Shown: positions 4,324 through 60,777, counted from the stretch's first letter. The stretch is 64,000 nt of DNA from Candidatus Poribacteria bacterium (GCA_002709695.1 PAQF01000017.1:69426-133425); one strand, 5' to 3'. Program-made: numbers and translations. Notes: generated by a model not told the origin, from the letters alone.

Positions 4324-4933
4324 CCATTTCTCTCAACCTGCCCCCCATCTGTAACCAAATAAACTAGGTACAATTCACATCAACTTTGACAAAATATCAA
4401 AAATCTCAACTGGCAATAATATCAATTAAAACTTAGTAATATAGAGACCAGTCCGCGTAAAAATATTAAAATCTACATCTACAGAAAATATTATTAATAA
4501 AACCTCATCTATAAAACAACAATATACCACATCACAACATCTTCATCTAATTCAACACCCAACCCAAGTTTTTCTGTCACCACAGCATATCCATCCTGTA
4601 CTAAAGGCTCAACCAACAAGCTATGTTCATGAACGAAATTACCGCATAAATCACTACCTAAGTCAACATTAGAAACCTGACACACGGAAATACTGCCAGA
4701 TGCTGCAATCCGAGCCATATCTAAAAACCCAATCTGAGGTCATCCCCAAAGCTGGCATCAGTTTCTCAACAAAGTCGACCATACTTAAACCTTGACTTTT
4801 GCAACAAAAAAATATCTACCTAAAACAGAAGTGATCACTAACAATATATTGATTCTGATCTAGTAAACATCGGCTTTGAATCCAACCTATTTCTCACACA
4901 CTTGATCTAACCAATTCAAGTTACAGATTCAGA
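4324..4933. other. gene-poor stretch with an enolase-family remnant
   Basis: About 600 AT-rich bases between two convergent genes. The only coding signal is the leftward fragment at 4509-4718. No terminator-grade hairpin was seen. Confidence 0.5.
4509..4718 (-). pseudogene. C-terminal remnant of a mandelate racemase/enolase-superfamily gene
   Basis: A leftward 69-codon frame containing HEHSLLVEPLVQDGYAVV then LGLGVELDEDVVMWY. This matches the C-terminal capping segment of mandelate racemase-type enolases (x-D-P-L/W-x-x-x-D-G-Y-x-x-V-x-x-x-P-G-L-G-V-x-x-x-x-x-x-x-x-Y). The intact family member at 18259-19386 has the parallel HELVSDPWVQEDGYVAV and NPGLGVTVREDIVQKY. No barrel or active-site portion is recognisable upstream (4719-4933), so only the last part survives. 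The assignment rests on a short match. Confidence 0.5.
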
Positions 4934-6088
4934 TCAAAACCAGAAGCTTGACATCAAAATCACTTGGTCTACACCATTCAGCTGCAGATTCTTGTTATTA
5001 TGCCCATTGTTATTTTCAATATTCCCCCAATAATAAATTTCAAATGATGCATTATTAGCAAACCTATACCGAGCAAAGATTGTGATTCGCTGTGCCAAGT
5101 CTCCATTGACCTGCCAATCCGGATCAAACGTTTCATAACGCCCTGAAACTGAAAGCCTAGGTGTCAAACGATATTTAGCTCCTACGTAATAGCCTGCGGA
5201 CACAAAATCTTCAATTCCATTTTGGGTTTTCAAATCATATTCGATTTCAACTGAGAATTTGTCAATATTGGCTATGAGAAAAGCAGCTGACACTGCTTCA
5301 TTCTGCATTTCAAGCTTATCGATCAAATGAGAGATACCAACTCGGATAAAAGCAAATTTCCCACCAATGGTTGTCAAAAAACCTTTGTGCTGATTTTGAT
5401 CAGCCAATGTATTACGACCTCCATTAAAAACAGCTGAATTAAAAAACAGATTCTTATAATTCCCCACGACCTCAAAACCAAGATCGCGCTTATTGGATCC
5501 TAAATTATAAGCATTCCTAACTAAAATATTGTGATCATCCTGACGAAGAGCAAACGGTAGTTGGAACTGTCCAATTCTTACCCAAAGACAATCAGAAACA
5601 ACCTCCACCCGTCCGAAAGCATCAAACGGGGTTCCAAAATTGCTAGACAAGGTCGCCTGAACCTTATCCGATATTTGAGAATGAATAGCAACTTCTGATT
5701 TCATCAACACGAAACTATCAACTGAAGAATGGCAAGAAACACAACTAGCCATTTCCTGATCATGGTGGTTGACTTGAGATGTCTTAATATAGGCAACGCG
5801 TATATCTCCTGAAAAGGAGTTGTCTCGAACCTGAAGACTATTTGGCTTAGCCAAAAAGGTTTCAGGTTCGAAATCTTCAGGGAATTCAAAGTCGTTTTCA
5901 CCAAAAAACTGTCCAACGACATTCCTAGCCCCTCCACCATTTGGATCTAGATGACAAAAAGAACAATCCTGACCAACTAGCTGAGCAAACTCAGGAAAAG
6001 CCTCAACAGAAGAAGGCCCCAATAATCCAGATAACAAAAAAATTAATGATACAATAGAAGCATAAACGATATTCATATTCACCAGCAT
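4934..6088 (-). CDS. c-type haem-containing porin-like outer-membrane protein
   Basis: About 384 residues. A signal peptide (residues 1-30, cleaved after VEA) is followed by two haem c-binding motifs, CSFCH at 42-46 (then LDPNGGGARN) and CVSCH at 116-120. After these comes a porin-type domain with many amphipathic strands, ending in a terminal Phe (SSFWF), as BAM-assembled barrels do. The CxxCH-x-x-P-x-GGG-x-R-N arrangement at the N-terminus of porin-like proteins is known from several phyla but poorly studied; electron transfer at or across the outer membrane is a reasonable inference. ATG 6088 is preferred over the TTG at 6103 because AAAAGAG precedes it; ATG 6076 is possible. No cytochrome-maturation genes are in the window. 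Confidence 0.75.
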   Translation of the reverse strand: MLVNMNIVYASIVSLIFLLSGLLGPSSVEAFPEFAQLVGQDCSFCHLDPNGGGARNVVGQFFGENDFEFPEDFEPETFLAKPNSLQVRDNSFSGDIRVAYIKTSQVNHHDQEMASCVSCHSSVDSFVLMKSEVAIHSQISDKVQATLSSNFGTPFDAFGRVEVVSDCLWVRIGQFQLPFALRQDDHNILVRNAYNLGSNKRDLGFEVVGNYKNLFFNSAVFNGGRNTLADQNQHKGFLTTIGGKFAFIRVGISHLIDKLEMQNEAVSAAFLIANIDKFSVEIEYDLKTQNGIEDFVSAGYYVGAKYRLTPRLSVSGRYETFDPDWQVNGDLAQRITIFARYRFANNASFEIYYWGNIENNNGHNNKNLQLNGVDQVILMSSFWF

Positions 6089-29589: not shown

Positions 29590-31356
29590 TCATTGCAAAA
29601 GAGAATCAATTTGCTCAAATAAGTCTGTAAATTGTTCTTTCTTTTGCTTATCTTCGAAAGGTAAAGAAGATAGTTCTTCGAGAATCGATTCTCTTCCATG
29701 TTTCTTGAATAATTTCTCACAATTTTTAGTTGTTTCGGCTTGATTCCCTGTTTTGAAATAGGTTGCAGTCAGAAGAAACATGCCCATTAAGTCGGGGTTT
29801 GAGATCCTAGACAGTAATAAGATTGCCTCATCAAAATTCTCTTCCAAAAACCCTACTAGTCCTTCCAAATAGAATTGTTGATCTGAACCGTAAGGGTTCA
29901 ATACTTTAATTTCTTCAATCAGGTCTTTAGCTTCAGTCATATTTCCCGAGAAGATGCAAAATGAGACTAAATTCAAAGCTAGATGAACATCACTTGGACT
30001 CATTTGATGAGCTTTCCGATAATGGGCCTCTGCACTGATGAAATCGTTATCAAAAAACAGCTTCATATAACCCATTATTCTGTTAGCCTCAGCGTCATCT
30101 GGATCAATTCTTATAGCTTCATTGATATGGTAAATGGCTTTGTCAAACCAATCATCAGCCACAAATTCCGACGCTGGCCAGTCTTGCAAATTGGCTAGGC
30201 TACAAGTACTCCAAGCATGGGCTCGAGCATACTGAGGATCAATCCCAACTGCCTTTTGGAACAATGTAAAAGCTTGTTCTGCATTTTCTTGAGAGGAACC
30301 ACTCATTCGATGAAAATGCATTCCTCTCAAAACACAATCATGCGCAGAAAAATCTACTGGATTCTTATGTTTCAATTTTTCAGTTTCGTCTGCTTTGACT
30401 GAACCCACTATTGCATTTGAAGTAGATTTTACAATTGCTTCTTCAATATCGAAAACCTCTTCTAGAGTACATGTATGCTTATCACTCCAAATACTCACAT
30501 TATCCTGAGTATTTGACAATTCAATATTGATTCTCATGCGTGGCCCAAGCTTTCGCACACTACCAGATAAGACATAGCCTGCTCCAAGTATTTGAGCATA
30601 TTTATCTGGAGATTCATCCGAATTGCTATAGGCAAAACTGGCATTTCTCGATAATACCTTAATATGCTTAAAGAGGGATAGTTCACCAATTATTTCCTCA
30701 CAAAGCCCCTCACACAAGTAATCTAGCTCCTCATCACTACTCGAATTTTTGAACGGTAAAACCAAAACGCTGTTCTTAACAACATTTTGTTTGGGAAGAG
30801 ATTCCACCCCTTCATTGCGAACAGTAAATCGGTCGTTTCCTCTATACTCTGAAATAACAAAAACAGGTATTTCTTTAGAAATATTTTTGGCGGATATACT
30901 ACCTTTCTCCTCAAACCCATATCGTAATTTACGATGGACCATATCAAAAACCTGTCTAGAAATCAAAATCGAACCTGGCTCACAGGCTTGCTCGATTCTA
31001 GCTGCTAAATTGACAGTATCGCCCAAAAGGTTATTTTCCTCCACAATCACCTCACCAACATTTAATCCAATACGAAAAACCAAGTTAAATGAAGCATCAT
31101 TTTCATTTTCATCTTCTATCAATTTTTGCCAATCGACGGCACATTCAACGGCCTGAGCAGGACTAACAAAATCTACTAGGATACTATCCCCCGCGGTATG
31201 AAAGACTTGGCCATCATGATGTTCAACCAACTGATCAATTTTTGTCCTCAAGCCTCTTATTTTATGGATGGTCCCCTCTTCATCTGACTCCATCATAGAT
31301 GAAAAACCAACAATATCAGAGGCCAAAATAGCACTTATTTTCTTTTGCAAGTTCAT
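29590..31356 (-). CDS. class III adenylate/guanylate cyclase with TolB-like and TPR regions
   Basis: About 588 residues. The N-terminal cyclase domain (1-165) has the metal-binding Asp pair, ASDIVGFS and HTAGDSILVDF, and the transition-state Asn/Arg in LGDTVNLAARIE. The residue usually a substrate-specifying Lys before T-x-G-D is His here (VFHTAGD). Residues 195-300 form a TolB/FlgO-like module (SVLVLPFKN ... EIIGELSLF ... YVLSGSVRK), and the C-terminal half is TPR (A-I-R-I-D-P-D-D-A-E-A-N-R, YRKAHQMSPSD). This arrangement is known from proteobacteria and others; it should make cAMP or cGMP in the cytoplasm. AAGGAG precedes ATG 31356. Confidence 0.88.
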   Translation of the reverse strand: MNLQKKISAILASDIVGFSSMMESDEEGTIHKIRGLRTKIDQLVEHHDGQVFHTAGDSILVDFVSPAQAVECAVDWQKLIEDENENDASFNLVFRIGLNVGEVIVEENNLLGDTVNLAARIEQACEPGSILISRQVFDMVHRKLRYGFEEKGSISAKNISKEIPVFVISEYRGNDRFTVRNEGVESLPKQNVVKNSVLVLPFKNSSSDEELDYLCEGLCEEIIGELSLFKHIKVLSRNASFAYSNSDESPDKYAQILGAGYVLSGSVRKLGPRMRINIELSNTQDNVSIWSDKHTCTLEEVFDIEEAIVKSTSNAIVGSVKADETEKLKHKNPVDFSAHDCVLRGMHFHRMSGSSQENAEQAFTLFQKAVGIDPQYARAHAWSTCSLANLQDWPASEFVADDWFDKAIYHINEAIRIDPDDAEANRIMGYMKLFFDNDFISAEAHYRKAHQMSPSDVHLALNLVSFCIFSGNMTEAKDLIEEIKVLNPYGSDQQFYLEGLVGFLEENFDEAILLLSRISNPDLMGMFLLTATYFKTGNQAETTKNCEKLFKKHGRESILEELSSLPFEDKQKKEQFTDLFEQIDSLLQ

Positions 31357-54645: not shown

Positions 54646-54986
54646 GAAAAATAACATTCACGAGGAACCCAGAATAGATTATGAGATTAAGATTTTGTAT
54701 ATGTCGTTTAGTGTGGGATCAGTCTTTTTTGGAATACCATTGAACTCTTTGGTTTAGTCACTCAAAATCTTTAAAAGGTTTTTCTCCTGTGTAAATGTAT
54801 TATTCGTTTTTTTGATGCGAGTTTTATTGAAATATTGCAATTCTATATGCAAATAAACATAATGGATTACGCAGAAATTTTGGAAGAGCATCCGCTTTAG
54901 CCCACCTCTACATTGTCGCCATTATAATAAACCTCTCCTAGAAAAAGTCAATAATATTAAAATTTCTCGTTAAAAAGGAAAAAACT
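54646..54986. other. intergenic region, nothing recognised
   Basis: About 340 AT-rich bases between the DUF3604 gene and the broken dehydrogenase. AAAAAGGAA just before 54987 is a ribosome-site-like run. No terminator or coding remnant stands out. Confidence 0.5.
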
Positions 54987-56038
54987 ATGCCTACTATACA
55001 CCACACAGTCCTCAGAAAATTTATTTACAATTTGTATATCGGTGCAGGTGGAGTTGCAGAAGATGCCAAAATAGTAAATGATCATCTGGTAGACGCTAAT
55101 TTGGCAAGACACGACTCACATGGCGTCATTAACGCCACAGTTTATGCTAATGCCATGAAAAGAAAAATGGACCACCCGCCGACAAGCTAAAAATTATACG
55201 TGAAACACCTGTAAATGCAGTAATTGATACCCATGGAGCGCTGGGTACAGTAGCTTCGTTGAAATCTATGGAGATAGCCATCGACAAAGCCAAAACTAAC
55301 ACAGTCGGCATTGTTGGCCCCACCATTGTGGCCATACCGGACGAATGGATGATTATCCGACTCGCACCGCTACAGAAGGAATGATTGGCATCGTACTGCT
55401 CAATGGTGGTGGCCGTTTGATGCATCCATTTGGTGGGTCAGTCCGCCGAATTCCACCAAACCCAATTGCTATCCCTGTACCAAGAAAAAATGGGGAACCG
55501 CTGTTGCTTGATATGACTTTGACTGTAGTTACAGGCGGAAAGGTGAATCTGAAGGCCACTCTCGAGGAAGAAATGCCAGAAGGTTGGATGATAGACCCCA
55601 ATGGCAAACCAATCCTCGATCCAACAGAGTTACGAAATAATCCGCAGGCCTCAGCAATTATGCCGCTCGGTGGGTTCCAATTTGGGCACAAAGGCTTTGG
55701 TTTAGGATTTATGATCGATACCATTGCTGGTGGACTATCTTGGGCAGGTTGTAGCCGAGCCCAACCAACACGTGGAGCCAGCGGAATTGTAATGATGGCG
55801 ATCCAGATCGAAGCCTTTATTGACCTTGAATCCTACCAACAAGAGATTGAACATCTTATTGAATGGGTAAAATCATCACCTATGCTACCAGGTGTAGATG
55901 AAATTCATGTTCCAAGTGAAATCAAAACCCAAAACCAGAAGCAACGTCTCGAACATGGAATTTACATTAAAAAAACACACATGGACCCAATTAATCGAAC
56001 TATCCAACTCTCTAGGAGTCCAAGCCCCAAATCAATGA
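54987..56038 (+). pseudogene. malate/L-lactate (Ldh_2) family dehydrogenase, three frameshifts
   Basis: A member of the malate/L-lactate/ureidoglycolate dehydrogenase family, spread over three phases. Phase 1 from ATG 54987: ANLARHDSHGVIN and so on. A one-base loss in an A run at about 55165 moves to GPPADKLKIIRETPVNAV-IDTHGALGTVASLKSME. A second loss near 55321 moves to HCGHTGRMDDYPTRTATEG, then GFGLGFMIDTIAGGLSWAG (family signature). A third change in a run of seven A near 55970 restores HTWTQLIELSNSLGVQ with TGA at 56036-56038. Two of the three lie in poly-A. Protein is surely lost unless the sequence is in error. Confidence 0.88.
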
Positions 56039-56191
56039 ATAATGTTCATCTCACAGACACAACACCAGAAAATTGATAGAATTTTAATGATTGTTCTTCC
56101 CCGCAAAAACAAATGAAGACACAGGTCAAACACAAGCTAAACAGAATTTCAATATAAATGAGAATAATTAATCACACAAGAACCGTATTGC

Positions 56192-56545
56192 TTAGCTAAA
56201 ATGTGCTATTCCTTCCTCAAGATTATCCAAAATTTCAAGTCCTTCTACATATTCTAGAATATTCATTGCATCAATAATTACCAAGCACGGTTCTGACACG
56301 TTACACAAACAAAATTCTTGCTCTTTCTCTTCACCTTCAATAATTATACTCAACAACGTTGCCATACCACGACTTGTTGTAATAGTTACTTGGCCAAGAT
56401 CAATAACGATTTTTTTCCCCACTTCAATCTGATTATATGCTTCACGCAAATCATCAGCGGTTTCATAACCAAGATTGTTACTAATACCAATAATTGAAAT
56501 CTCATCTTGCTTAGCAACCGTGATGTTCTCACCAAATTCTTGCAT
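56192..56545 (-). CDS. STAS-domain anti-sigma factor antagonist
   Basis: A 117-residue SpoIIAA/RsbV-like protein: IIGISNNLGYETADDL, KKIVIDLGQVTITTSRGMATLL, EFCLCNVSEPCLVII, ILEYVEGLEI. The phosphorylatable Ser/Thr-containing loop is TITTSRGMA, against the usual D-S-S-G-L-G. Thought to bind and release an anti-sigma kinase. It follows the kinase-like gene by 12 bases; AGGAG precedes the ATG. Confidence 0.87.
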   Translation of the reverse strand: MQEFGENITVAKQDEISIIGISNNLGYETADDLREAYNQIEVGKKIVIDLGQVTITTSRGMATLLSIIIEGEEKEQEFCLCNVSEPCLVIIDAMNILEYVEGLEILDNLEEGIAHFS

Positions 56546-56557
56546 GCGTACTAACTC

Positions 56558-56980
56558 CTAATTTTGAAAAATAGTCACTGTCGTTGTCGTGCCTTCACCA
56601 CTCTCAGCATCAATCTTGATGTCATCAACAAGTGACCGCATCAAATGCAATCCCCATTGGCCAATTTTTTTTTGCTTAATTTGTTCCCTTAGATCAATCA
56701 TCTCGAACGAGGGATCGACCTCACCATCTCCCGAATCCTTTACACTAACATCTATCGCATCATCACTATAAACAATTGTCACTGTAACATCTTTATTAGG
56801 ATCCTTTTGATTCCCATGCTCAATAGCATTAATACAAGCCTCCGCGACAGCTACTTTGAGTTTACTTACTTTTTCAAAAGGGAACTTTCGAACCCTAGCA
56901 ATCGTACCAACAGCTTCGACAACCACCTCTTCATAGCCAAAAATGCTGGGTACTGTAACCGTAACTTTTTCAGTTTTCAT
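56558..56980 (-). CDS. anti-sigma regulatory factor (RsbW/SpoIIAB-like serine kinase)
   Basis: A 140-residue GHKL ATPase-type anti-sigma factor. N-box KVAVAEACINAIEHGN, G1-like VSVKDSGDGEVDP and G2 QKKIGQWGLHLMRSLVDDI. It should phosphorylate the adjacent STAS protein and release or hold a sigma factor or other partner. No PP2C phosphatase or sigma gene is in the window. The GAF gene lies 222 bases upstream on the same strand. Confidence 0.9.
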   Translation of the reverse strand: MKTEKVTVTVPSIFGYEEVVVEAVGTIARVRKFPFEKVSKLKVAVAEACINAIEHGNQKDPNKDVTVTIVYSDDAIDVSVKDSGDGEVDPSFEMIDLREQIKQKKIGQWGLHLMRSLVDDIKIDAESGEGTTTTVTIFQN

Positions 56981-57202
56981 TAATCCGGCCCCACCATCTT
57001 AAATATATAACGGTAAAAACAGATACGCAACTTAATCACCCTACGTTTCATTAAATCTCACAGATTAAGCAAACGATACCCCGAATTCACTGACAACGAA
57101 TCCCAATTAGCCCTACCCTAAAAAAACAAGGTGGGAACCAATAAAAATAAAGTACCAATCTCTATCACAAAAAAGCTAACAAGAGATATTTACTCTTTGA
57201 AA

Positions 57203-59710
57203 TCAACGACTCCCAACATCCGAATGATCAACAGTATTTACAGTTACTCGTATGGCTTTTAAACCGTGAACTGACTGCAAATCATCCAATTCTAACATTT
57301 CTATCTCATCAGCCAAATAGCCTGTAGCATGCAGATATTCCGCACACTGACGATATTCGTCTTCCTCACGCTGATTAGAATATACGATGGCAATTTTCCC
57401 AATTTGCGTTAGCCTTTCATTAGTACCCCTAACATAAGATTTATCCATCCGTGACTTCAAAACTTCGTATCGAGTATCATAACTGCCTGATACGACAAGT
57501 TGCTTTTCATCAATGTTAAACTTAACTGAAATCGGTTCCTGTTGCACAACAATAAGATGACATGTGTGCAAAGGTAATTTTAGCTGCGACTGAAGTTGAT
57601 AAGACAAACGTGCACAACCACAGACCATCATAAACTGCCACAACCTAAGATTTTTTAAATATAGACTATCAAATACCGCATCCTCTATCATCGACTTACC
57701 AACATAAATCCCGTGATCAACACCATCTGTTACTTTTTTCTCAAAATAATGAGGAAATATCTGTTGAGCCTTTTTCTGTTCCCGATCAATGTACGCCGAA
57801 ATAGTTTCATTAATCAAAGCCACACTTTCTTCATAATCTCTTCGGGCCCGATGGATTGTATCACGTTTGGGATCTAACAACCTATGATAAGACTCAATCT
57901 TTCTTTCCAACCCCGAATCAAAGTTCTGCATATGAGGGAAGAAAATTTCCACTTCATCTCGAATGAATTCCAAAGTTTCAGATTCTACTCCAGCCCCTAA
58001 ATCTGTATCACGAACCGTTGACAACTTTTGATCAATTCTATGAACCAACTCGAGTAAAAATGGCATCGGCTTCAAATCATAAGCTAAAGTAACAATTTCT
58101 TTAGCAAGGCTCAGTTGTTCAGACAAATCAGTTTGCACAGCTTTATTTTGTGCGGAGGATGATCCACGTATATCAGATTGACCATACAACGGATAAACCT
58201 CGCGAAACTCAATTTCTTCCATTTCAGTGACAGTTTCGCCACTTCGCTGCCTATCGAGAAGATTAAGTGCCGCATCTCGGAAACGCCACTCAATAGAGGG
58301 ATGAATAGCCGTACATTTCTCTTTAATTATTGTTTGCACACTGTTAGTAAAATCATCAATTCGCCTCTTAACTGCAGATGAAAACAATGAGACAATATCC
58401 CACAACTTCATCGCATTCATAGAATTGAGATCTCCCACGTTAACAGCCCGTAACTCTAAAATACCAACCGGTTCATCTTGGTCATAAAGAGGTTCAACAA
58501 CTATACTTTTCACCCCCTCTTCGATAAGCCGATCCTCGATTCCAGTACGTTTTCTCAGCTTACTCAAGTCTTCAATTACCAGATGGCCACCCTGATTAAT
58601 CGCACGCTCGTAAATTGAGCCATCAAGCTCTGATCGGTGTCGTCTTGTACTACTCCAATCGAATGAATCCTGTTCAATAGCCTCACCGGAGTTAATCGTC
58701 CACACCTGCTCACCTTGAATCCCAAGCAAAGAAACAGTCATTTCCGGTAATCTCAGTACCGTACGCAGTTTTTCTTGTAGTTCAGCAAAACGATCCCGAT
58801 TAGTAATCGATTCCTTCTCAACCAAATCTTGCTCAATTGAAGACAAAACTTGCCGTTCAGTAACGTCGGAAGCACTTACAACAATAAACCCTTGAAATTC
58901 GAAGGTTTCAGGTTTTAACAATTCCATTAACAATTTCAAACCGGTCACATTTGCTAGTAAAGTCTTCTGTGCAGCGTCTGTAATTGGCTTAACATTCTCA
59001 CTCCCCAGTTCACCTGAAAATGAGGATAAAAGAATCTTCAAACCACTCAGGTTTGACAGAAGATTCTTTTTGATTGTGTTAGTTAACTTCTTTGGCTTCC
59101 CTACAGTATTAACACGACAAAATTGTGAATCAAAATCCAGCTTTAAATGCCGCACCAAACCAGAAACAGGATCAAGGCTGGATGAAATGGTTGAATGGTC
59201 ACAATCAAGTTCCAACCCATAGAACTTTGTCACAATATAAGAATACGCATACAAAATTTGGACATAAATTCTAGTATGTTTATCCAGATCAGCCAGTTGA
59301 TCAGCAAAAGTACCATCCTCTCCCATCAACAAATCTCGAAAAGGCGAAGTAACATAAAATGGAGTGTAGTCAAAAGGAGGAATAACAGACACACAACTAC
59401 TATGATTTAAAGCCTCAGGAACAACAGCAGTCAGCATCAAGTCAATCAATTCTCGATTTTTATCAATCACAGATAAATCAGTAATAGGTTGGAACAATTC
59501 CGGAGCACTCTTTAGTTTTTGTTGTATCTCTTGTGCAAACGAAGCTTGAATTCTCTTCCGCTCATCATTCAACTCATCCCGATTCCAAAACTCAATCAAC
59601 GGCACCAAACTTAATCTAGACATAAAAGGAAACTCCTTTATGTCCAGTTCATCAGCATAATTAAAATCTCGTATCAACGGATTTACCACCGAATCTATAT
59701 CTACAGACAA
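57203..59710 (-). CDS. large GAF-domain sensory-type protein of unknown output
   Basis: An 835-residue soluble protein beginning at TTG 59710 with GGGGA five to six bases upstream. Residues 1-260 form an unclassified helical region (RLSLVPLIEFWNRD, APELFQPITDLSVI) resembling large GAF proteins of Bacteroidetes-type bacteria. Residues about 300-445 are a GAF domain (LRLPEMTVSLLGIQGEQVW, IVVEPLYDQDEPVGILELRA). The rest is helical plus a C-terminal mixed domain containing GVDHGIYVGKSMIED. No kinase, cyclase, phosphatase or DNA-binding domain is visible. Position next to an RsbW/STAS pair suggests an upstream sensor of that switch. Confidence 0.75.
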   Translation of the reverse strand: MSVDIDSVVNPLIRDFNYADELDIKEFPFMSRLSLVPLIEFWNRDELNDERKRIQASFAQEIQQKLKSAPELFQPITDLSVIDKNRELIDLMLTAVVPEALNHSSCVSVIPPFDYTPFYVTSPFRDLLMGEDGTFADQLADLDKHTRIYVQILYAYSYIVTKFYGLELDCDHSTISSSLDPVSGLVRHLKLDFDSQFCRVNTVGKPKKLTNTIKKNLLSNLSGLKILLSSFSGELGSENVKPITDAAQKTLLANVTGLKLLMELLKPETFEFQGFIVVSASDVTERQVLSSIEQDLVEKESITNRDRFAELQEKLRTVLRLPEMTVSLLGIQGEQVWTINSGEAIEQDSFDWSSTRRHRSELDGSIYERAINQGGHLVIEDLSKLRKRTGIEDRLIEEGVKSIVVEPLYDQDEPVGILELRAVNVGDLNSMNAMKLWDIVSLFSSAVKRRIDDFTNSVQTIIKEKCTAIHPSIEWRFRDAALNLLDRQRSGETVTEMEEIEFREVYPLYGQSDIRGSSSAQNKAVQTDLSEQLSLAKEIVTLAYDLKPMPFLLELVHRIDQKLSTVRDTDLGAGVESETLEFIRDEVEIFFPHMQNFDSGLERKIESYHRLLDPKRDTIHRARRDYEESVALINETISAYIDREQKKAQQIFPHYFEKKVTDGVDHGIYVGKSMIEDAVFDSLYLKNLRLWQFMMVCGCARLSYQLQSQLKLPLHTCHLIVVQQEPISVKFNIDEKQLVVSGSYDTRYEVLKSRMDKSYVRGTNERLTQIGKIAIVYSNQREEDEYRQCAEYLHATGYLADEIEMLELDDLQSVHGLKAIRVTVNTVDHSDVGSR

Positions 59711-59786: not shown

Positions 59787-60182
59787 CTATCTAATCAACC
59801 CATCAGACAAAACCGTTAACCTCAGATTTTTCATAAACTGGCTAGCTTGATCAATTGAAGGCTTAGAATTCTGAAAACGTTCCTGATAACTATCAAGAAG
59901 TTGATAAAGCCGGTTCAAATCAACTTCCCGGCGAGAGCTAGCTTCACGAACCAAAGCAAATTGGTCTCGAATTTGATCTACCGAAAGACTATCTGGACGA
60001 TTGTTTAAGAAATGATTTTCAACGACATCAATAGTACGCCCCGCCATCCAGTATCTCAATCCGTTAATCCCACCAGATTTCTGGTAAATATACCAAGTAG
60101 GGACAAAGATAATCATTACAATAACGAAAAGGAAAATCAGAACTCGGCGATAACAACCTAAAAACTTATTATTTTTCGCCAT
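59787..60182 (-). CDS. small single-span membrane protein
   Basis: A 131-residue protein with an N-terminal membrane segment (VLIFLFVIVMIIFVPTWYIY, residues 14-33) and an outer soluble helical part (DQIRDQFALVREASSRREV, LNRLYQLLDSYQERF). No known family. It overlaps the preceding small gene by 25 bases, so co-expression is likely. Probably a membrane-tethered helical-bundle protein. Confidence 0.65.
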   Translation of the reverse strand: MAKNNKFLGCYRRVLIFLFVIVMIIFVPTWYIYQKSGGINGLRYWMAGRTIDVVENHFLNNRPDSLSVDQIRDQFALVREASSRREVDLNRLYQLLDSYQERFQNSKPSIDQASQFMKNLRLTVLSDGLIR

Positions 60183-60481
60183 TTCTCTTTAAAAATTCCC
60201 GCAACGTGAGCCTTCAAAAAATATCGGCACCCATCCAGCTCGCAAATGTCGACACTTGATTTTTTAGAACTGTATTTCTTAATACACTCCCCATTAAAAC
60301 AGTACAACTGCCTAATCCAAAGCCCTCTTTCTGTTACCATAAAACTAAGTTGACACATATAATTACTTAAAAACTTGCAAGCGGCATCGAGACGTTTTCC
60401 AAGTTGCCACATGCCCAAAAAAACGGGTTCTTGGGCTCGAATCCTAAGATATTGCCAAAACAGTTGGATGATGGCTCCCAT
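60158..60481 (-). CDS. small Cys-containing protein of unknown function
   Basis: About 107 residues from ATG 60481 (a GTG at 60505 is the longer choice). N-terminal helical part (FWQYLRIRAQEPVFLGMW, QLGKRLDAACKFLSNYMC), then a short Cys-rich end, YCFNGECIKKYSSKK and ICELDGCRYFL, whose four Cys (C-x4-C ... C-x4-C) could hold a metal. Its stop lies 25 bases inside the next gene. No recognisable family; real-gene status is supported mainly by the coupling. Confidence 0.5.
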   Translation of the reverse strand: MGAIIQLFWQYLRIRAQEPVFLGMWQLGKRLDAACKFLSNYMCQLSFMVTERGLWIRQLYCFNGECIKKYSSKKSSVDICELDGCRYFLKAHVAGIFKEKWRKIISF

Positions 60482-60777
60482 ATTGGAAAGTAACAACAAT
60501 TCCACTAAAAATTCAGGAAAAACAGCTCTCTATATACTATGAACTGCCTATAGATTACAACCTGCAAAAAGAGTTCCCCAGCTTACCACAATTACCAAAT
60601 CTGTGACAAGAATTTTCTTGCTCTTTAGAATCAAAATTCCATATAATCATGAGAACACTGATAAGCTAACGAGGAATAATAATTCATTGTTAGCAAATAA
60701 ATTATTATCATTAAAATCAGCAGAAAGGATCGCATAATATCTTAGGATTCCTAAACCCAATTCTCCTACTTGGCACA

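Follow-up and report, generated by a model that had tools for sequence, protein, structure and literature searches.

What does a partner switch control when neither a phosphatase nor a sigma factor is encoded beside it? A locus of Candidatus Poribacteria raises this question, as genes for an RsbW/SpoIIAB-like serine kinase and a STAS protein here follow a gene for an 835-aa protein with a GAF domain. The preliminary description of this stretch of 64,000 nt (the window; part of contig C17 of G000, a genome of 5.2 Mb in 87 contigs) took the GAF protein to be devoid of an output domain and suggested that it might stand in for the missing phosphatase or sensor, or signal through the STAS protein.

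Organization and conservation of the three genes

The three genes are real open reading frames (ORFs), as had been claimed, and lie co-linearly on the minus strand in the order GAF gene, kinase gene, STAS gene. The GAF gene (57203–59710) starts with TTG, preceded by a Shine-Dalgarno-like AGGGGA. After a gap of 222 nt follows the kinase gene (56558–56980; 140 aa; HATPase_c_2, 9e-25) and, a mere 12 nt downstream of it, the STAS gene (56192–56545; 117 aa; Pfam STAS, 2e-10). The GAF–kinase intergenic region (56981–57202, minus strand) contained no terminator-like site in a scan whose results overall were at chance level. A promoter-like sequence (TTGCGT-17-TATATT at 57030–57002, 8 of 12 positions, read by eye) falls inside a block conserved with L017, a locus of the same genus, so that a separate promoter of the kinase gene is possible in this genus. 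There, the GAF–kinase spacing amounts to 183–222 nt; in a third genome, G002, it is just 50 nt if the kinase ORF is taken to begin at its listed TTG.

Positions 59787–60182 (minus strand), immediately upstream of the GAF gene, encode a 131-aa protein with one apparent membrane helix near its N-terminus, which is conserved in the same genus only (73% in L017) and was not found in G002. A decayed-looking queE remnant (60158–60500, minus strand) can be aligned, with deletions, to the C-terminal portion of queE in the sister genome (31% identity, E 2e-6), where the gene is intact and precedes the same transmembrane (TM) protein gene. On the other side (~54980–56076, plus strand) lies an Ldh_2 (malate/L-lactate dehydrogenase) gene broken across frames, whose intact ORF covers the C-terminal 243 aa and which is likely a pseudogene or an assembly error.

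The GAF–kinase–STAS order was kept in all three genomes examined of this Poribacteria family (G000, G001 and G002), with identities between G002 and the window of 49% for the GAF protein, 57% for the kinase and 68% for the STAS protein. The three genes stay together despite changing outer flanks, namely queE and the TM protein gene in G001 (a remnant in the window) and a divergent kinase–STAS–PP2C operon in G002. Close orthologues of the kinase and the STAS protein were confined to these three among the 59 genomes searched; no close STAS orthologue was found in 30 other genomes carrying the GAF protein, nor in G019, where the GAF gene sits near a contig end. This arrangement supports the view that the GAF, kinase and STAS genes form a module. 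As all evidence for the linkage comes from three genomes of a single family, it counts as one evolutionary event.

Predicted architecture of the GAF protein and its family

In a full-length AlphaFold model of the GAF protein (pLDDT 82), the GAF domain is preceded by an N-terminal domain and joined through a helical linker to a C-terminal one; all coordinates given here are on the minus strand. The N-terminal domain (residues ~25–300; 58811–59638) is predicted with a mixed alpha/beta, unclassified fold, at a pLDDT of mostly 70–90. For the GAF domain (residues ~305–450; 58361–58798), the Pfam GAF_2 match is weak (4.6e-4, under the family's cut-off); backed by the model and by PDB fold matches, which place it at about 300–450, the single GAF domain originally described nevertheless holds. 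The linker (residues ~437–489; 58244–58402) leads into the C-terminal domain (residues ~495–824; 57239–58228), which is predicted to fold like class III nucleotidyl cyclases, enzymes producing cAMP or cGMP, and to contain a helical insertion (~547–620). Fold prediction of the two flanks thus assigned the C-terminal one and left the N-terminal one unclassified, and the model contradicts the premise of a protein without output domain.

The best PDB fold match of the full-length model was a phytochrome-regulated class III cyclase (6fht, 3.6e-8). Folded alone (AF2; pLDDT 91.8, pTM 0.86), the C-terminal part retrieved exclusively class III cyclases at ranks 1–42 of a Foldseek search against the PDB, including Cya2 (the best, 3.9e-4), CyaB, CyaC, AC9 and soluble guanylate cyclase, with TM-scores, normalized by single-domain targets, of mostly 0.4–0.6. 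Its strand order agrees with that of class III enzymes, the helical insertion separating the first two helices. This likeness emerged by structure comparison only, sequence routes failing: Pfam, NCBIfam and PDB phmmer/hmmsearch searches gave no cyclase signal in the C-terminal domain and no PF00211 match, and hhalign against seven cyclase sequences from the same genome returned probabilities <1%. As sequence profiles give no support, the relation is founded on the fold model and on conserved residues, by which the C-terminal domain appears to resemble class III nucleotidyl cyclases. A canonical class III cyclase domain is encoded elsewhere in the window (30856–31332, minus strand; PF00211, 1.5e-14; G000:C17:100281–100757), one of nine in the genome.

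Across 82 aligned sequences, Asp513, Lys658 and Asp662 are invariant, with roles assigned by topology, by eye. Asp513 (58172–58174), in S-D-I-R-G-S-S after strand 1, is the presumed first metal Asp; an E-K-x-x-T-D-G hairpin (Lys658 to Asp662, 57725–57739) carries the presumed base-contacting Lys and the presumed second metal Asp. The two metal-binding Asp residues that mark class III cyclases are hence both found by this by-eye mapping. In adenylyl cyclases the base-contacting Lys lies four residues ahead of the metal Asp, and the spacing from Lys658 to Asp662 is the same. A transition-state Asn-Arg pair was not recognizable in the simplest register of the 82-sequence alignment, where position 746 is I/V/T and position 750 I/V; a conserved Ile at the Asn position has also been reported for the cyclase-like DUF2652 family (PMC4886424).

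Some features of the protein are restricted to the lineage with the linked kinase and STAS genes. Residues 739–741 (57488–57496) read V-V-S in the window and D/E-V/I-D/E in other homologues. Position 739, which corresponds to the second base-specifying residue in adenylyl cyclases, is D in 76 and E in 3 of the 79 other homologues, as opposed to V, V and A in the triad lineage; the motif F-D-V-[DE]-G (738–742), otherwise conserved, became L-[VA]-[VM]-[SAK]-G in this lineage only. An insert of 29–34 aa (residues 213–246; 58973–59074), predicted to be disordered (pLDDT <50), is present in the window, L017 and L018 and absent from all other homologues aligned; it is a candidate partner-binding segment. 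Near-invariant columns (n = 108) were lost at 15 positions in the window protein and at 20 in L018, compared to one in the unlinked G019; no other homologue had lost more than 10. Both the insert and the loss of the motif go together with kinase/STAS linkage, which suggests, from a single lineage, altered or lost catalysis together with a new interaction. Because the acidic motif was lost, the cyclase-like domain of the triad may be substrate-altered or a pseudo-enzyme.

In total, homologues of the GAF protein occurred at 309 loci in the genome contigs searched. The best matches came from Rokubacteria, KSB1, Deltaproteobacteria, Ignavibacteria, Pontibacter and others, Bacteroidota also being in the family's range; the closest named match (88% identity) belongs to a Candidatus Poribacteria MAG (L021). 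Outside the triad family the protein is mostly encoded by a lone gene with unrelated neighbors. A functional link via neighbors in other phyla was considered and rejected, as these (BipA, CoA-transferase, dehydrogenases, etc.) share no theme. The protein was found in 4 of 59 genomes of relatives and, phylum-wide, in 4 of 85 (a fifth match, to the GAF region only, was left uncounted), and the unlinked protein from Poribacterial G019 falls together with the triad branch (support 86/95). For these reasons its acquisition history, horizontal transfer having been considered, is uncertain.

Kinase, STAS protein and candidate phosphatases

The kinase retains intact HATPase_c_2 N, G1 and G2 boxes, with the N-box E47-x3-N51, D82-x-G-x-G and G107-x-W-G. 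In the STAS protein, the loop reads T-T-S-R-G. Alignment places Ser58 (codon 56372–56374, minus strand) at the phosphorylation column, in line with the Ser of D-S-S/T motifs, and the preceding Asp is replaced. The reported departure from the usual D-S-S-G loop is therefore real; the phosphorylatable Ser is kept all the same, and altered chemistry does not follow. Loops of related STAS proteins read T-S-S-R-G (the paralogue STAS′, described below), N-S-I-G or N-S-A-G, and those of unrelated STAS proteins from the window's genome D-S-S-A and D-S-T-G. Since PP2C-linked Poribacterial STAS proteins lack the Asp as well, its absence is no argument for a different chemistry, and a reading of the loop as lost phosphorylation was rejected.

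Neither a PP2C nor a sigma gene was found at the window locus, so that the stated lack of both is correct locally; it does not extend to the genome. In G002, the triad lies divergent from a second pair, kinase′ (5297–5731) and STAS′ (4877–5248), each ~50% identical to its triad counterpart, and a gene for a 1398-aa Reg_prop + Y_Y_Y + SpoIIE protein, i.e. a PP2C (L101). G001 has the same kinase′–STAS′ pair and the start of the PP2C gene at a contig end (L146). In the window's own genome, the last 316 residues of a Reg_prop-SpoIIE PP2C (52.5% identity to that of G002) are encoded at the start of contig C41, and kinase′ and STAS′ presumably fall into an assembly gap. Eight to nine matches to sigma-70-family (SigBFG-like) proteins are likewise found elsewhere in the genome.

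Other Poribacteria possess operons of kinase, STAS and GAF-SpoIIE genes (L150–L152; Pfam run on L151 and L152). In G021, an operon (L148, 3271–8121) encodes a 7TMR-DISM-SpoIIE protein, a kinase, a STAS protein and a GAF-SpoIIE protein, two PP2Cs thereby flanking one kinase–STAS pair. The window's genome additionally carries a second, unrelated partner-switch-like cluster (L103, 3126–7398; G000:C1) with genes for a STAS protein, a sensor histidine kinase, a response-regulator-SpoIIE protein and an RsbW-like kinase. No sigma gene was seen beside the partner-switch loci read, as far as their ORFs were identified.

A possible cyclase-like target of the switch

The explanation we favor, whose probability we put a little short of even, is a partner-switching module with a cyclase-like effector, rather than a sigma factor, as its target. 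The RsbW-like kinase would phosphorylate the STAS protein at Ser58, and a PP2C encoded elsewhere would strip the phosphate, the best candidate being the SpoIIE protein with a beta-propeller from the sister kinase–STAS operon. The STAS protein, depending on its phosphorylation state, or the freed kinase would then bind the GAF/class III cyclase-like protein and switch its state, perhaps via the lineage-specific insert or the GAF–cyclase linker. This explanation is based on computed gene linkage, domain identities, predicted fold and conserved residues, and from these we infer a phosphorylation, a binding partner, the way in which control runs and, if there is one, a nucleotide product. Counted against it are the missing profile similarity, the by-eye residue mapping, the unrecognizable transition-state Asn-Arg pair, the single lineage, the gap of 183–222 nt with its possible conserved promoter, and the sigma-70-family genes elsewhere in the genome.

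What the GAF protein contributes could be read otherwise. It might be a ligand-binding sensor acting upstream on the kinase or the STAS protein, in which case the actual output (a sigma factor or some other target) would be encoded elsewhere. The sensory nature of the GAF fold fits with this, as do the SigBFG-like matches in the genome and the gene arrangements of other Poribacteria, where a GAF-SpoIIE phosphatase is the third gene of the kinase–STAS operon (L151, L152) or, in G021, the pair has a PP2C gene on either side, which would put the GAF protein in the sensor's place. A pure sensor, however, would have no need for a large conserved cyclase-fold domain with three invariant, presumably catalytic residues, and elsewhere the protein occurs without kinase and STAS partners; we hold a sensor to be unlikely. 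Signaling of the GAF protein through the STAS protein, as initially suggested, is possible, and so is a sigma target in trans, given the sigma-70-family genes elsewhere in the genome. That the GAF protein would go further and replace the PP2C phosphatase enzymatically is highly improbable: the triad itself does lack a PP2C gene, but the sister pair has its own Reg_prop-SpoIIE PP2C, adjoining the triad in G002 and with an orthologue in the window's genome, and the C-terminus is cyclase-like, no PP2C fold being among the 50 Foldseek matches listed.

It is quite unlikely, in turn, that the genes are mere neighbors or simply co-transcribed, with the GAF/cyclase-like protein working alone and the kinase–STAS pair acting in trans on a sigma factor or some other target. 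Such independence would agree with the lone-gene status of the GAF gene outside the family and with the promoter-like block ahead of the kinase gene in the genus of the window. It sits poorly with a triad that persists at 49–68% identity though G002 has other outer flanks on both sides than G000/G001, with the 50-nt gap in G002 (to the listed TTG kinase start), and with a sequence change of the GAF protein that accelerated exactly in the linked lineage. Overall, the preliminary description is confirmed in part: its module idea gains support, its phosphatase replacement is weakened, its missing PP2C holds for the locus only, and its missing output domain is contradicted by the model.

A cyclase-like target would have precedents among known switches. 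In Pseudomonas aeruginosa, the phosphorylated STAS protein HsbA binds and controls HsbD, a GGDEF diguanylate cyclase, with the single HsbR protein acting as kinase/phosphatase (PMC5085249); the enzyme-like partner in the triad combines GAF and class III-like folds instead, and its binding by STAS is putative. STAS-type proteins also control diguanylate cyclases as a function of phosphorylation in the BgrV–BgrR (Sinorhizobium) and SiaC–SiaD (P. aeruginosa) pairs, SiaC binding the stalk of SiaD in a switch that includes a PP2C (PMC8457831). These systems resemble the proposed module in pairing a kinase and a STAS-type protein to control a cyclase, and differ from it in their GGDEF enzyme, in SiaC being a DUF1987 protein, and in gene order and effector family. 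With RsbU–RsbV–RsbW and SpoIIAA–AB the triad shares an HATPase_c_2 serine kinase and a STAS substrate, and its sister operon a SpoIIE PP2C; unlike them, it has a GAF/cyclase-like protein and lacks a sigma factor in the operon and its vicinity.

As for the putative effector, the GAF protein shares with class III cyclases (Cya2, CyaB, CyaC, sGC) the predicted fold, the topology and the positions of two metal Asp residues and a base-contacting Lys, and departs from them in lacking a profile match and a clear Asn-Arg pair, in its helical insertion of ~75 residues and, in the triad lineage, in the lost acidic motif. DUF2652 is a comparable divergent bacterial family, placed in class III by distant similarity and with Ile at the Asn position in some members (PMC4886424); its members are single-domain proteins of ~250 aa, and the GAF protein has no Pfam DUF2652 match.

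Control of a nucleotide cyclase by a partner switch is on record for GGDEF diguanylate cyclases, and a target of class III fold would add a second cyclase superfamily. A wider scenario, which we consider tentative and rather doubtful, is that a widespread, unrecognized family of GAF-linked class III-like cyclases (>300 loci) was captured in one Poribacteria family by an RsbW/STAS switch, in the course of which it acquired an insert for docking and lost the motif specifying its substrate, becoming a switched pseudo-cyclase or an enzyme for a different nucleotide. In the triad lineage, the captured protein can be set against its lone homologues as a natural comparison. More generally, a cryptic cyclase-like catalytic domain, with invariant residues of catalytic type, appears to be present in a large family whose annotation goes no further than 'GAF domain', and this family of unknown role thereby gains a directly testable function.
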